Source of the DNA: a virus | IMG/VR virus record: IMGVR_UViG_3300047276_000532 | Span: 1 to 32,293 of that record | Reading direction: 5' to 3' (one strand) | Length of the DNA: 32,293 nucleotides | Part shown: piece after piece, positions 3,656 to 32,293 of the stretch | Layout of the letters: each line of letters opens with the position of its first letter | Numbering within the stretch: position 1 is the stretch's first letter | The notes under the pieces: generated by a model | The model's input: only the letters and a program-made list of their open reading frames with translations | Told to the model about the DNA's origin: nothing | The model's database searches: none | Program-made: the position numbers and the translations under genes

Positions 3656-3873
3656 TGGCTAAGCGCCTGATGCTGCCAAGGGGCAGGGCGCGGATCGTTC
3701 CGCACCAAGCCTATGACGCTGCCCTGATTGTTAAGAAGGGTGTGCTAGCCTATGACTACGGCAAGCTTGTCAGCATCACTAGGCGCGTGATGAAGCTTAA
3801 CCCAGCTGACGCATCAGATTGGGTGAGCTATAATTTTTGCAATAACCCACACCTGAAAATCCACCCATACTGA
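3655..3873 (+). CDS. Small basic hypothetical protein
   Basis: The 72-residue product is basic at its N-terminus (MAKRLMLPRGRARIVPH) and has no recognised domain. The start overlaps the preceding stop by one base (TAATG) and uses the M-A-K opening seen in several genes here. It lies between the SSB-like gene and the helicase, so a replication-accessory role is possible but unsupported. The following 50 bases to the helicase start contain no clear promoter or hairpin. Confidence 0.6.
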   Translation: MAKRLMLPRGRARIVPHQAYDAALIVKKGVLAYDYGKLVSITRRVMKLNPADASDWVSYNFCNNPHLKIHPY

Positions 3874-3923: not shown

Positions 3924-5249
3924 ATGACCAACCTACCTAGCCCCGGTCACAACCTACCCTGTGACTTGGATGCTGAACGCACTGTGCTTGCCTCTATCCT
4001 TGTGGATAGCGCGCAAGACAAGCCAACGCTCACCAGCTGCCTCAAGGCTGACCTTCAGCCTTCTGACTTCTATGAGCCTAAGCACCAGCTGATCTACCTA
4101 GCCTGCCAGAAGGCAGCTGAGGAAGGCGCTATGCCTGATGAGCTGGCTGTAAGCGCCAACCTGCGCGCTAACCTTCAGCTGGATATGGCTGGGGGCGTCC
4201 CCTACCTGAATGAGCTGACCGCAAAGCTGTTCGCCCCTTCACCTAATGTAGCTAAGGCAGTCACGCTGATTAAGGATAAGCTGAACCTGCGCAGGCTTAT
4301 CTACGCATCTAGGGAGCTGCAGACAAAGGCGCAGTCAGGCATCTTCAGTCCTGCTGAGCTGGCGGCAGGCTTCCAAGCTAGCACCAGACTCATCCTTGAG
4401 TCCGGCAAGCGCTCAGAAACCACCCAGCGTATGGAGCTGGATGAGCTTTGCAGCTTTGACCGATTTAATGACCCCAATACCTTGGTGGGGAAGCGCTGGC
4501 TGTGCAAAGGTGGTAGCCTGCTATTCTCAGGGCAGGCTGGCGCTGGAAAATCCACCCTGCTGACTCAGCTGTGCATCAGCTGGGCGCTTGGCAGGGACTT
4601 GTGGGGTATGAAGCCTGTGCGCCCCCTGCGTATGCTGATCCTGCAATCTGAGAATGACGGAGGCGATTTGGGCGAGCAGCTGCAGGACTGCCTCAAGGCT
4701 ATGCAGCTTACCCAAGCTGAGAATGAGCAGCTGCGTGAGCGCGTATTTATCTACCGGGAAGCTGTGAAGACAGGGGAAGCATTTGGGACGCTGCTGGAAG
4801 ACCTGATTACTACCCACCAGATTGACTGCGCTGTGGTTGATCCGTTGCTTGGCTTCAGTGGCGGGGACATATCAAAGCAGGACTTCTGCAGCCATTTCCT
4901 GCGCCATATCCTGCAGCCTATCCTGATGCGCACTGGGTGCTGCCTCATAGCTGGTCACCACCAGAATAAGCCCCCGCGTAAGAAGGAAGACCAAAGCAGT
5001 ATGCTATCTACATATGACTTCACCGGCTCAAGTGAGCTGGCTAATTGGTTCAGAAGCACAGCAATCCTGCGCAGGGAAGACCCTGAGCTTCCCCACTTCG
5101 TCTTTAAGCTGGGCAAGCGCGGCAGCAGGGCAGGGATGAGGGACAAGCAGGGTAATTTCACTGAGTCCCTACGGATCAGGCACAGCAAAATCAGGGGTGA
5201 AATCAAATGGGAGATAAACGACCTGCCGCCCCCTTCTGAGGAAGTCTGA
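3924..5249 (+). CDS. Replicative helicase, DnaB N-terminal domain plus RepA-like ATPase
   Basis: The 441-residue product is a probable hexameric replicative helicase or loader. Residues 11-130 match the DnaB N-terminal domain (DLDAERTVLASILVD, then DFYEPKHQLIYLACQ). Residues 185-420 form a RecA-like ATPase of the RepA/AAA_25 type: Walker A GQAGAGKST at 203-211, the QSENDGGDL segment near 241, Walker B DCAVVDPLLGF at 301-311, and the AGHHQNKPP motif at 343-351. The protein is as long as DnaB, but its motor resembles the plasmid RepA type rather than DnaB proper. No polymerase or primase gene was found, so host replication proteins would finish the fork. No Shine-Dalgarno precedes the ATG (TTCT-ATG). 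Confidence 0.88.
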   Translation: MTNLPSPGHNLPCDLDAERTVLASILVDSAQDKPTLTSCLKADLQPSDFYEPKHQLIYLACQKAAEEGAMPDELAVSANLRANLQLDMAGGVPYLNELTAKLFAPSPNVAKAVTLIKDKLNLRRLIYASRELQTKAQSGIFSPAELAAGFQASTRLILESGKRSETTQRMELDELCSFDRFNDPNTLVGKRWLCKGGSLLFSGQAGAGKSTLLTQLCISWALGRDLWGMKPVRPLRMLILQSENDGGDLGEQLQDCLKAMQLTQAENEQLRERVFIYREAVKTGEAFGTLLEDLITTHQIDCAVVDPLLGFSGGDISKQDFCSHFLRHILQPILMRTGCCLIAGHHQNKPPRKKEDQSSMLSTYDFTGSSELANWFRSTAILRREDPELPHFVFKLGKRGSRAGMRDKQGNFTESLRIRHSKIRGEIKWEINDLPPPSEEV

Positions 5250-5252
5250 AAG

Positions 5253-5933
5253 ATGAACCATATAACAGTCAGATCAATCAGCCCAGAAGACGCGCACCCT
5301 TGGCTGCTTAATAAGCATTATGCCCATAGGCTTTGCCCCATATCATATGCTTTTGGCGCTTTCAGTGGTAATGACATAATTGGGGTGGTCACTTACGGCA
5401 CTCCAGTATCATCAACCCTTAGGGATGGTGTATGCGGAAAGGAACACGCTAGCTGCGTATTGGAGCTGAACAGGCTATGTTGTGAGAGTATGAAAAACCT
5501 AGCTTCTACCTTGGTTGGCAGATCTTTAGCGCTACTTCCCAAGCCAACAGTGGTAGTTTCCTACGCAGACACTGGGCAGGGTCATATAGGCTTCGTGTAT
5601 CAAGCCACTAACTTTATTTACACTGGGCTTTCAGCTAAGTTTAAAGACCCAATGGTAAGGGGTATGGAACATAAGCACCATACCACCATAGGTGATGAAG
5701 GCAGGGGGCATCCTTCTAGGGTGGATTTCCTGCGTGAGAAGTATGGGGCTGAGAATGTCTATTTTTTGGAAAGGGATAGGAAGCATAGGTATATCTATAT
5801 CTGCGGATCTAAGACCCAAAAGAAGCTGCTGCTAAAAGCTCTTACTTACCCAATCGAGCCTTACCCAAAGGGTGAGAGCAAGAGGTATGATGCTAGCGCC
5901 CAGATACAGGGGCAGACCTATTTCAACCTATGA
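5253..5933 (+). CDS. Mom-like DNA adenine hypermodification protein
   Basis: The 226-residue product resembles phage Mu Mom, a GNAT-fold enzyme that converts adenine in DNA to a carbamoylmethyl derivative and so blocks many restriction enzymes. Family landmarks are NKHYAHRLCPISYAFGAF (20-37), VLELNRLCCES (69-79), VVSYADTGQGHIGFVYQATN (101-120) and DFLREKYG (158-165). From memory, the Mu residues His48/Tyr49, Asp139 and Tyr149 matter for function. Here His22/Tyr23, Asp106 and Tyr116 fit, with the same 10-residue Asp-Tyr spacing. The gene starts 4 bases after the helicase stop. No Com-like translational activator was found. The region looks more AT-rich, with more AGG and ATA codons than its neighbours, which suggests recent acquisition. 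Confidence 0.82.
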   Translation: MNHITVRSISPEDAHPWLLNKHYAHRLCPISYAFGAFSGNDIIGVVTYGTPVSSTLRDGVCGKEHASCVLELNRLCCESMKNLASTLVGRSLALLPKPTVVVSYADTGQGHIGFVYQATNFIYTGLSAKFKDPMVRGMEHKHHTTIGDEGRGHPSRVDFLREKYGAENVYFLERDRKHRYIYICGSKTQKKLLLKALTYPIEPYPKGESKRYDASAQIQGQTYFNL

Positions 5934-7740: not shown

Positions 7741-8883
7741 ATGAGTAATTACAAATTATTACACGGCAGCAATCTGGAGGTTTTGCCAACCTTACCTGAT
7801 AACTATGTTGATGCTATTGTGACTGATCCACCATATGAGCTTGGCTTTATGGGTAAGGCTTGGGATAGCACAGGTATTGCATACAGCGTAAAGCTTTGGT
7901 CTGAATGTCTTAGGGTGCTAAAGCCCGGTGGACACCTGCTGGCTTTCAGTGGCTCAAGGACTTACCATAGAATGACCTGCGCCATTGAAGATGCAGGCTT
8001 TGAAATTAGGGATCAGATTATGTGGGTATATGGTTCAGGATTTCCCAAGTCACACAATGTAAGCAAAGCGCTGGACAAGGCTGCTGGGGTAGAACCACAA
8101 GTTTTAACCAGAAACCCAAACTCAAGAGAAAACTCTAAGAAAGAAAACAACCTGTATGATGCTGGGACTGTAGGTAAGACCGCTATGATTACAGCACCTA
8201 GCTCAGATGCTGCAAAACAGTGGGATGGCTGGGGAACAGCTTTGAAGCCAGCGCACGAGCCTATCTGCCTAGCTCGAAAACCACTTGAAGGCACTGTTGC
8301 AAGTAATGTCACCAAGTGGGGTGTGGGAGGCATTAACATCAACGCTTGCAGGGTAGGGAATGAAGGAGGATGTGCAGGTGCAGGTGCAGGTGCAAGGGTT
8401 TTTGGGAACGGACTAAATGGAACATTTGCAAAGCCTGTGCCGGGACTTGGACGCTTCCCTGCCAACCTGATGCACGATGGAAGCCAGCAAGTGCTTGATC
8501 TGTTCCCATCAAATGCTGGCTCAGCAGCGCGCTTCTTTTATTGCCCTAAGGCAAGCAAGGCTGACAGGGATAATGGGTGTGGTGGTTTTGATCTTAAAAG
8601 GGATAGTGATAGAAAGAAGACTGATGGTGTAGGTGGTGACAATCCAAGGAATAGGACAAACAAGCTTAGGTCTAATTTTCACCCCACAGTTAAGCCCACT
8701 GAATTGATGCGCTATTTGTGCAGGCTTATCACACCACCTAAAGGACTTATCCTAGACCCCTTCAATGGGTCAGGCTCTACAGGCAAAGCTGCGCTGCTGG
8801 AGGGCTTTAGCTACTTGGGTATAGAGTTAAATCTGGACTACATTAAAATTAGTGAAGCCAGATTAAATGACCTGAATACCTGA
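7741..8883 (+). CDS. DNA methyltransferase, beta class (N6-adenine or N4-cytosine)
   Basis: The 380-residue product is a SAM-dependent amino-methyltransferase. The catalytic motif IV DPPY is at residues 29-32 and precedes the SAM-binding motif I DPFNGSGSTG at 339-348, with HPTVKP at 314-319; this order defines the beta class. LKPGGHLLAFSG (about 60-71) and FFYCPKASKADRD also match the N4/N6 methylase family. The long middle part is presumably the target-recognition domain and includes a Gly/Ala stretch from a GCAGGT repeat near 8375. No restriction enzyme lies beside it, so it is an orphan enzyme, probably protective. The DNA is more AT-rich than its neighbours. The gene starts 4 bases after terS. 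Confidence 0.9.
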   Translation: MSNYKLLHGSNLEVLPTLPDNYVDAIVTDPPYELGFMGKAWDSTGIAYSVKLWSECLRVLKPGGHLLAFSGSRTYHRMTCAIEDAGFEIRDQIMWVYGSGFPKSHNVSKALDKAAGVEPQVLTRNPNSRENSKKENNLYDAGTVGKTAMITAPSSDAAKQWDGWGTALKPAHEPICLARKPLEGTVASNVTKWGVGGININACRVGNEGGCAGAGAGARVFGNGLNGTFAKPVPGLGRFPANLMHDGSQQVLDLFPSNAGSAARFFYCPKASKADRDNGCGGFDLKRDSDRKKTDGVGGDNPRNRTNKLRSNFHPTVKPTELMRYLCRLITPPKGLILDPFNGSGSTGKAALLEGFSYLGIELNLDYIKISEARLNDLNT

Positions 8884-13875: not shown

Positions 13876-15051
13876 ATGCGCACACTTAATAAAGCTATCA
13901 GTGCTGGTAAGCCCTTCCTTGTGGATTACCAGATTGCTGAGCAATACCTGCAGCTTAAGAAGTCTGCTGGGATCACTGACCTTATCACCCAGCTGTTTGG
14001 TGAAAGCCCTAAGCCCTACACAGTGGGCAGCACCTATGTCATCCCTGTTATGGGTATGATTTCCAAGGGACTCAGCCCCATTGAAGCCATTGGCGCTACT
14101 GATGTTGAAAAGCTGGATGACCAGATTGATGAAGCGCTGGCTGCTAATCCTAAGCGCATCCTTTTCCATATCAATTCTGACGGCGGCACTATTGATGGTG
14201 TGGAGGAAATTGCTGACAAAATCCGCGCGCTGCCTGTTGAAACTATTGCCTACACTTCTGGGTCTATGAACAGCGCTGCCTTCTGGATCGGAAGTGCAGC
14301 TGACCGGGTGCTTGCATCAGCCAGCAGTAGCGTAGGGGCTGTGGGTGTGTATAGCGTCAGCACTGACTTGTCTGAACAGGCTAAGGCTATGGGCATTAAG
14401 GTTAAGGTCTTCCGAAACACCAGCAGCCCTTACAAGGGTATGGGTGTTGCAGGGACTTCCCTGACAAGTGAGCAGGAAGCCCTGACCCAAGCTGAAGTAG
14501 ATAAGGCTGGTGAAACCTTTAAGCAGGCTGTGCTGATGAAACGCAAGCTGGCTAAGCCTGAAGATATGCAGGGGCAGGCTATGTCTGGCAGGGATGCTGC
14601 CGCGCGCAACCTCATCACAGGGCTGTCCCCTACCCTTAAGACGCTGCTCACCCAGCTGGAAGGCAGTGACACTGCCAAGCCTGCCACAGCTCAGATTGCC
14701 AAGCTTAACAAGGGCAAGCAGGCTGCTACCTCTTTCAAGCTCAAGGCTCAGGCTGATGAAGCCCCTGTTATGGATCAGGAAGCAACTGACGCTGCTGATG
14801 GTCTTAACTCCCGGCAGCGCTACCTTGTGGATGAGCTTGAAGGTATCACTGAAACCTTTGGCGCGTTTGACCAGACCAGCCTTGCTGATGGTTCACACTA
14901 TGTGGCTGCTTCCCCATTTGGTGAGCAGGGCATTAAGTGCGCTAACTGCGTTTTCTATAAAGGTGGCAGGGGTTGTGAGATTGTTTCTGGGGACATTGAC
15001 CCTGAAGCTGTCTGCAAGTTTTGGGTCATTCCTGCCAAGCTCATCAAGTAA
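13876..15051 (+). CDS. S49-family capsid maturation protease with C-terminal Cys4 domain
   Basis: The 391-residue product has an SppA/S49 serine peptidase domain (about 45-260) that processes capsid or scaffold proteins during head maturation. Landmarks are HINSDGGTIDGVEEIADKI (98-116), the nucleophile region SGSMNSAAFWIGSAAD (Ser133), SSVGAVGVYS (151-160) and SSPYKGMG with Lys187 as the likely general base. After an Ala/Gln/Lys-rich linker the last 37 residues hold four cysteines (355, 358, 367, 380) with CVFYKGG and ending VCKFWVIP, a small metal- or Fe-S-binding-like domain also seen in other phage head proteins. The fusion is notable. The start is CCT-ATG, 11 bases after the portal stop. 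Confidence 0.88.
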   Translation: MRTLNKAISAGKPFLVDYQIAEQYLQLKKSAGITDLITQLFGESPKPYTVGSTYVIPVMGMISKGLSPIEAIGATDVEKLDDQIDEALAANPKRILFHINSDGGTIDGVEEIADKIRALPVETIAYTSGSMNSAAFWIGSAADRVLASASSSVGAVGVYSVSTDLSEQAKAMGIKVKVFRNTSSPYKGMGVAGTSLTSEQEALTQAEVDKAGETFKQAVLMKRKLAKPEDMQGQAMSGRDAAARNLITGLSPTLKTLLTQLEGSDTAKPATAQIAKLNKGKQAATSFKLKAQADEAPVMDQEATDAADGLNSRQRYLVDELEGITETFGAFDQTSLADGSHYVAASPFGEQGIKCANCVFYKGGRGCEIVSGDIDPEAVCKFWVIPAKLIK

Positions 15052-16463: not shown

Positions 16464-16495
16464 AAGCTCACCTTGGAAACAGGGTGGGCTTTTTT
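16464..16495 (+). terminator. Intrinsic terminator after the capsid gene
   Basis: The stem AAGCTCACC/GGTGGGCTT (16464-16472/16483-16491, one G-T pair) closes on a 10-base loop and runs into six Ts (16490-16495). This is a textbook rho-independent terminator. It ends the head-gene transcript and would lower expression of the tail genes unless there is read-through or antitermination. Confidence 0.9.
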
Positions 16496-16528
16496 GTGTC
16501 TGCGCGCGTGTGATGAAAATCTGATTAC

Positions 16529-16556
16529 TTGACAAAATGATTTAATCTGCTATAGT
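16529..16556 (+). promoter_or_regulatory. Sigma-70-type promoter
   Basis: TTGACA (16529-16534, exact -35 consensus) and TATAGT (16551-16556, 5 of 6 matches to TATAAT) are separated by 16 bases in an AT-rich stretch. Initiation is expected near 16562-16565. This is the only near-consensus promoter noticed in the genome, and it lies directly after the capsid terminator and before the gene at 16670. Confidence 0.82.
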
Positions 16557-16560
16557 GGTA

Positions 16561-16648
16561 ATACAGTCAGGCGTGATGCCATACACTGTATGATCCTTGA
16601 AAGTCCTGCTGCTGGTAAATCTTTCCAGCTGGGTGAAAGCTCAGCTGG
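16561..16648 (+). promoter_or_regulatory. Structured 5' leader of the 16670 gene
   Basis: The predicted start region opens with a perfect 7-bp inverted repeat ATACAGT/ACTGTAT (16561-16567/16585-16591) holding an inner GGC/GCC. A second stem CCAGCTG/CAGCTGG follows (16625-16631/16642-16648, loop GGTGAAAGCT), with direct repeats of CAGCTGGG at 16626 and 16642. An A-rich unstructured stretch then leads to the ATG at 16670. The first repeat could be an operator at the transcription start or a 5' protective hairpin; the whole leader of about 105 bases could be a control element. No known riboswitch is recognised. Confidence 0.6.
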
Positions 16649-16669
16649 GATCACAAACAAAATACCATA

Positions 16670-17014
16670 ATGACCAAACGCAAAACCAGCACCAAGCCTG
16701 ATAAGGCGCAACCAGCCAACGCACAGTGTCCTGCGCAAGCAGTGGCACACACCGGGGGCATTAATTGGGGGCGCGCTTATTATGATACTGAGCTTAAAGC
16801 TCAGCAGGTAGGCAAGTGGATCAGTGAAGGCAGCTCCTATAAGTGGAGTCACGCGCGCTGGTCTGTCAGCCAAGTCACTGTTGATGGTGTCTCCCTATGG
16901 GAGCTTGACCACCACAGGGACAATACCCGCAGCCCCAGCTGGGCTGAACAGATCAAAGGCAGCTTCCCTAGCCCCACTGAGTATGTGGCTAGGCTGAAGT
17001 CCAAGCAGGACTAA
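16670..17014 (+). CDS. Unknown protein in a self-contained transcription unit (moron-like)
   Basis: The 114-residue product has no recognised domain. The N-terminal 25 residues are Lys/Pro/Ala-rich and probably disordered (MTKRKTSTKPDKAQPANAQC). Residues 30-110 look folded and are rich in Trp and aromatic residues (INWGRAYYDTELKAQQVG, YKWSHARWSVSQV, LWELDHHRD). No signal peptide or membrane segment is seen, so it is probably cytoplasmic. It has its own promoter at 16529, a structured leader and a strong terminator at 17020, and it separates the head from the tail genes. That arrangement is typical of morons, accessory genes expressed independently, often for host modification, superinfection exclusion or anti-defence. 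No function is assigned. Confidence 0.8.
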   Translation: MTKRKTSTKPDKAQPANAQCPAQAVAHTGGINWGRAYYDTELKAQQVGKWISEGSSYKWSHARWSVSQVTVDGVSLWELDHHRDNTRSPSWAEQIKGSFPSPTEYVARLKSKQD

Positions 17015-17019
17015 CACCC

Positions 17020-17051
17020 GCCCCCACCTAGCCAGCCTAGGTGGGGGCTTT
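17020..17051 (+). terminator. Strong intrinsic terminator after the moron-like gene
   Basis: A perfect 12-bp stem GCCCCCACCTAG/CTAGGTGGGGGC (17020-17031/17037-17048) with loop CCAGC is followed by TTT. The stem is very stable, although the T-tract is short. It begins 5 bases after the stop of the gene at 16670 and insulates that unit from the tail genes. Confidence 0.85.
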
Positions 17052-17154
17052 CTGTTGGCAGTGGTATCAGGGTAGCCCCCACCCCTAGCTAAGCCTGCCA
17101 CAGCCAAGCTAGACCCATAGGACAGCAAGCCTGCTTGTCAGCCCCGGCAATAGT

Positions 17155-32155: not shown

Positions 32156-32227
32156 GCACCTGTAGCACAATGGCTGTGCGCCTGCTTTGTAAGCAGGGGG
32201 CTGCAGGTTCAAGTCCTGTCAGGTGCT
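32156..32227 (+). tRNA. tRNA-Thr(UGU)
   Basis: The 72-nt cloverleaf is complete. The acceptor stem GCACCTG/CAGGTGC has 7 perfect pairs, the D stem GCAC/GTGC has loop AATGGCT, the anticodon stem CCTGC/GCAGG has loop TTTGTAA and anticodon TGT, the variable loop is GGGCT, and the T stem GCAGG/CCTGT has loop TTCAAGT. The first pairs G1-C72 and C2-G71 fit threonine identity rules known in E. coli. The discriminator is T, which is unusual, and CCA is not encoded. It would read ACA codons. Confidence 0.93.
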
Positions 32228-32293
32228 TACCTTTCCTACCCAAACCAATAAACCGCTATGACCACTAAGAAAACTAAGACCCAGAATGAAGAC
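32167..32293. repeat. Terminal direct repeat, right copy (circular contig overlap)
   Basis: This is identical to bases 1-127. It continues the tRNA into the start of the ERF gene, confirming that 32166 joins to 1. When counting genes or bases, one copy should be dropped. Confidence 0.95.

Follow-up and report, generated by a model that had tools for sequence, protein, structure and literature searches.

Why should a phage carry, directly after its capsid gene, a small open reading frame with a promoter, a leader and terminators of its own, among genes that otherwise belong to the structural operon? The locus lies in the middle of the window, the whole 32,293-nt stretch of viral DNA that was analysed, and a preliminary description made from the sequence had taken it for a moron, i.e. 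an accessory one-gene unit. The promoter, the leader hairpins, the frame of 114 codons and both terminators were each located where that description had placed them, and a further element was found between the hairpins. The features are:

16464–16491, plus strand: intrinsic terminator after the capsid gene, the upstream insulator; a 12-bp stem followed by TTTTTTGTG.
16508–17061, plus strand: the whole unit, present or absent as a block; from alignment of the window with the empty relatives L009 and L013.
16529–16556, plus strand: sigma70-type promoter, TTGACA-16-TATAGT; a match to the consensus, kept in other unit-bearing contigs.
16563–16589, plus strand: leader hairpin 1; inverted repeat and predicted fold.
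16591–16603, plus strand: boxA-like element, TGATCCTTGAAAG; from a matrix of 35 Verrucomicrobiota rRNA boxA sites.
16623–16650, plus strand: leader hairpin 2, with a GAAA loop; pairs kept in the window clade.
16670–17014, plus strand: cargo gene A, 114 amino acids; purifying selection against the L002 homologue, and a 35% identical homologue in L038.
16681–17006, plus strand: segment replaced by an unrelated reading frame in L011; the window and L011 align up to 16680 and again from 17007.
17020–17048, plus strand: terminator ending the unit; a perfect 12-bp stem.
32156–32227: tRNA-Thr (TGT), the phage's own.

The first 127 bases of the window are identical to the last 127 (1–127 and 32167–32293), which makes the window the complete, circular genome of a phage, ~32.17 kb long. 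All its main genes lie on one strand. They comprise an Erf-like annealing protein, exonuclease VIII, a DnaB-like helicase and a ligase, and the terminases, an S49 protease, the capsid and the tail genes, together with the tRNA-Thr. The genome also encodes both a Mom-like DNA modification protein (5253–5933) and a DNA methyltransferase (7741–8883), which suggests modified DNA that protects against restriction. Two tRNA hits at the ends of the contig might be read as the mark of a prophage; this reading was given up, since the genome is circular and its ends are one repeat of 127 bp, the left hit being the same tRNA-Thr gene cut by the contig end. No integrase was found among the open reading frames scanned (small ones were covered in part), and from this and the complete circular genome the phage is probably virulent. 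The sole relative of its capsid in the phage collection is that of P8625, a virulent phage of Verrucomicrobia, and a 61% identical capsid is present in one Verrucomicrobiota metagenome-assembled genome (MAG); these two matches point to a Verrucomicrobiota host. A Shine-Dalgarno motif accompanies almost none of the 28 gene starts examined in the window, and the phage must use other signals to initiate translation. Its absence before the cargo gene was considered as a special trait of the unit and dismissed, almost no gene of the phage having one.

The −35 element of the promoter (16529–16534) is separated by a 16-nt spacer from the −10 element (16551–16556), which is preceded by TG. It is the only site in the window with at least 11 of 12 consensus matches, where Markov-1 simulations lead one to expect 0.23. 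Other unit-bearing contigs have TTGACA or TTGAAA with TATGAT, TAGTAT or TATAGT. A terminator scan of the whole window gave no more sites than shuffled sequences; the two that flank the unit stand out through the length of their stems and their conservation in relatives. The one after the capsid gene is found in unit-bearing and empty relatives of the window clade alike. The downstream terminator has a weak T-tract (TTTCTGTT) and is identical to that of L002 at 43 of 43 bases, with 25–44% of the fourfold sites nearby differing. The unit thus appears to have both a promoter and a terminator of its own. Cargo A and its L002 relative (89% identical) differ at 25.5% of fourfold sites and at 7% of first and second codon positions, and because the fourfold sites differ more, the reading frame is, on this codon comparison, real and under purifying selection.

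Is the gene then a regular part of the head operon? Relatives were taken as IMG/VR contigs from searches with the capsid and head genes in which the interval between capsid and head genes was readable. The unit is present in 15 of these (including the window), and absent from 12 viral contigs and one MAG contig. The window aligns with L009 as far as 16507 and again from 17062, and likewise with L013, so that 554 bp are present or absent as one block. One of the empty close relatives has a capsid protein practically identical to that of the window. The empty state requires at least five changes on the starred branches of the capsid tree. In L011 the promoter, leader and first codons align with those of the window and the coding part alone has been exchanged; replacement of the same kind is seen in L010, L044 and L046. 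The comparison with related phages proposed at the outset therefore found a unit that comes and goes at exact boundaries, and the gene is not a fixed part of the structural operon. That this is an interchangeable cassette is, from these alignments, close to shown.

A normal structural or assembly gene, in the position of lambda FI, has some points to recommend it. The gene that follows has a weak match to the lambda gpFII family (PF05354, E 0.015), and P8625 also has a small reading frame here, between its coat gene and the next. The latter (L133, 3595–3945) encodes gp12, 82 amino acids with an RGRKP motif near the C-terminus, which is unrelated to any of the cargos; it lies between two terminator-like hairpins, where a promoter would not fit. 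Such a role is nevertheless most improbable, for close relatives that share the head genes either lack the gene or have another in its place, and the unit has its own promoter; nor did the 114-residue protein match any virion family. The moron reading is supported as regards an accessory cassette; a lysogeny gene is less likely, as the phage looks virulent.

Two further observations concern blocks in this region. In a second clade (L024–L030, L031–L039) the unit stands between two terminators that resemble each other as direct repeats. Empty relatives retain only one, with a loop like that of the downstream copy. Loss through recombination between the terminators is plausible there because of these two features. 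Within the window, 14703–15044 codes for an extension at the C-terminus of the S49-type prohead protease. It contains a cysteine-rich motif (CANCVFYKGGRGCEIV...CKFW), and L009 and L013 lack the extension as a block.

The cargos are of four types: A (114 amino acids in the window), B (78), C (122) and D (68). L038 has a type A cargo of 80 amino acids, 35% identical to that of the window. No sequence relation was found among A, C and B/D, so at least three unrelated families stand behind the leader; D is perhaps distantly related to B, and their union as one family is suggestive only. For cargo A, searches of Pfam, PHROGs, NCBIfam, PADLOC and the PDB sequences gave no significant match. Its fold was modelled with moderate confidence as a beta-alpha-beta-beta core, and Foldseek with this model of modest confidence gave no match at E ≤ 0.001; remote-homology and structure searches have left this gene, at first described as an unknown one, without a family or fold match. 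The model of cargo C (pLDDT 45) was too poor for use. Cargos A and C have no further copies in IMG/VR beyond the unit loci, A, C and D no matches in the phage collection, and there is no known defence protein among the cargos. Most likely the cargo would be a dispensable protein directed at the host or at competitors.

What is held constant is the leader. It is identical at 90 of 106 positions, against 56–74% at fourfold sites of the neighbouring genes and the cargo, and it folds better than dinucleotide shuffles (z about −2.6). Its two 7-bp inverted repeats, ATACAGT/ACTGTAT (16561/16585) and CCAGCTG/CAGCTGG (16625/16642), form the hairpins. Given the predicted start site, hairpin 1 would lie at the very 5′ end of the transcript; the second clade has a different hairpin in its place, AGTTAAG-GCAA-CTTAACT. 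All pairs of hairpin 2 are kept in the window clade, two being changed on both sides and two on one, and the GAAA loop becomes GCAA in relatives. The support from this covariation is modest, being reached by 47 of 500 shuffles with few sequences, and the second clade shows none. The two clades share one plan: the 5′ hairpin 1, the element TGATC(C/T)TTGA, a GC-rich hairpin (usually with a GNRA loop), a CA-rich stretch and the AUG. The sequences of the hairpins differ between the clades and the element is conserved.

No Rfam covariance model, riboswitch families included, matched the leader. A three-way junction with a GAAAG/CUUUC stem is not claimed; it is predicted in part of the window clade only, without covariation. 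A short leader pattern, TGATCCTTGAAAGTCCTG, was discarded, three of its four matches being chance ones in coding DNA of unrelated contigs. A strict leader pattern matches this locus alone in IMG/VR. A leader-pattern search of 388 Verrucomicrobiota genomes gave no match.

From its match to the 16S leaders of Verrucomicrobiota we infer that the TGATC element is a boxA. Here the preliminary description, sound on the hairpins, had missed the element that sits between them. The boxA sequences collected from Verrucomicrobiota 16S leaders (TGATCTTTGAAAA, TGATCTTTGATAA, GGATCTTTGACAA, TGTTCTTTGAAAG and similar) lie about 100–210 nt upstream of 16S, and a hairpin often directly precedes them (mean z −1.47 over the 40 nt upstream). 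With the matrix of 35 such sites no other of the 64,560 positions in the window genome scores as high as the leader element, which takes first place in seven other loci too; the sites were chosen with the boxA consensus, so the matrix carries some prior choice. In a set of eight whole records, each of the four that bear the unit has the motif a single time, and the four empty ones do not have it. The second clade has TGATCTTTGA(C/A)A, an exact match to Verrucomicrobiota rRNA boxA. The element of the window clade departs from it at one core base (TCC for TCT); a TGATCCTTGA variant in the rRNA boxA of the host, if present, would explain this. As in an rRNA leader, the host-type boxA is near the predicted transcript start, with a hairpin upstream. 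NusB is found above the family cut-off in 37 of 39 Verrucomicrobiota genomes.

The same swappable cassette might have a leader that is simply a conserved stability or translation element, the TGATC sequence being no boxA. The core mismatch in the window clade would fit this, as would L038, the single member of a third lineage, where the element is degenerate (score 0.9); stable hairpins at the 5′ end would by themselves protect an mRNA. Against it are the exact rRNA boxA of the second clade, the first rank across the genome and the retention of the element while the hairpin sequences diverged between clades, and we regard this explanation as rather unlikely.

The favoured reading, to which we give a probability of about 0.6, is that these probably virulent phages of Verrucomicrobiota have an insulated cassette for interchangeable accessory genes and express it like an rRNA operon, from a sigma70 promoter through a NusB/S10 antitermination leader. 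In Escherichia coli, a boxA near the start of the rRNA transcript recruits NusB-S10 and the antitermination complex (PMC10250234). From the anatomy, the block-wise presence and absence, the exchange of reading frames and the conservation and uniqueness of the boxA, all visible in the sequences, the following course of transcription, its timing, Nus recruitment and recombination may be proposed. Transcription by the sigma70 polymerase of the host would start at ~16563, independent of the structural genes. As it emerges, the leader would present hairpin 1, boxA and hairpin 2 in the manner of the rRNA leaders of the presumed hosts, and NusB-S10 and partner Nus factors of the host would load on the boxA. 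The polymerase would thus be Rho-resistant over the ~107 nt of untranslated leader and the gene, giving strong expression, and the intrinsic terminators at both ends would separate transcription of the unit from that of the structural genes. The reading frame may be swapped between phages by homologous recombination in the conserved promoter–leader–start region and the conserved terminator, and the whole unit gained or lost as a block. The stronger statement, that virulent Verrucomicrobiota phages took a host rRNA-type antitermination leader as the standard expression part for unrelated effectors exchanged by recombination, has about an even chance. The rRNA-type reading is weakened by the core deviation, by the degenerate boxA of L038, by the weak T-tract downstream and by the 3′ part of the window boxA, which pairs with CUUUC in the predicted fold.

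A boxA may also repress. It is known outside rRNA, including in the repression of suhB (PMC5725501), and Nus factors on the leader might hold cargo translation down, the cargo being made when Nus is short. Repression has been documented for suhB at spacings of as much as 100 nt from boxA to start, as well as in lambda N autoregulation (PMC5725501). In both suhB and the phage unit the boxA is in the 5′ UTR of a protein gene; that of suhB adjoins the Shine-Dalgarno sequence, whereas here it is ~65 nt upstream of a start that has none. This distance, the strong promoter and the lack of an obvious reason why unrelated cargos should share one leader make repression improbable.

The order of promoter, boxA, hairpin, small gene with a basic N-terminus and terminator is also that of pL-nutL-N-tL1 in lambda, where the small gene, ended by a terminator, has a boxA and then a GNRA-type hairpin in its leader. 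The cargo would then bind the boxB-like hairpin 2 and, with boxA, antiterminate into the tail genes. A lambda N/nut system pairs a conserved antiterminator with a nut site of its own, and does so in at least two operons; here unrelated cargos follow near-identical leaders, the single boxA of the genome does not head an early operon and no second one was found in it, and the unit is missing altogether from close relatives. The swapped cargos and the single boxA disfavour this module, which is hardly credible.

The cassette read as an rRNA-type unit can be set beside other known systems. Like phage morons and prophage accessory loci (PMC7067206), it is a single small gene inserted between structural genes, with a promoter and terminators of its own, and its presence is patchy; it differs in that the phage appears virulent, the expression parts are kept while the gene is exchanged, and the leader is structured and has a boxA. 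With the boxB-boxA-boxC leader of rRNA (PMC10250234) it shares a promoter, a hairpin, the boxA of the host phylum and further structure near the transcript start, but the gene that it precedes is a short phage one that codes for a protein and has an intrinsic terminator to itself, and there is no rRNA. P2/P4 antiviral hotspots (PMC9122126) likewise have variable cargo at a fixed phage position; here single small genes share promoter, leader and terminator, and known defence proteins are lacking.

No report of such a cassette, or of boxA in morons, was found in the open-access literature. Promoter, boxA leader and terminator form a conserved sequence handle by which accessory genes can be recognised in phages of a phylum that has been little studied, and undescribed cargo could therefore be collected by its leader instead of by homology. 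If the boxA works as we infer, phages would here have based an accessory cassette on the antitermination system of rRNA, and Nus regulation would reach beyond rRNA, Nus genes and lambda-type nut sites.

Elsewhere in the genome, the second-best promoter-like site (3806–3834, CTGACG-17-TATAAT, 10 of 12 matches) lies before the helicase gene at 3924, and is possibly an early promoter.
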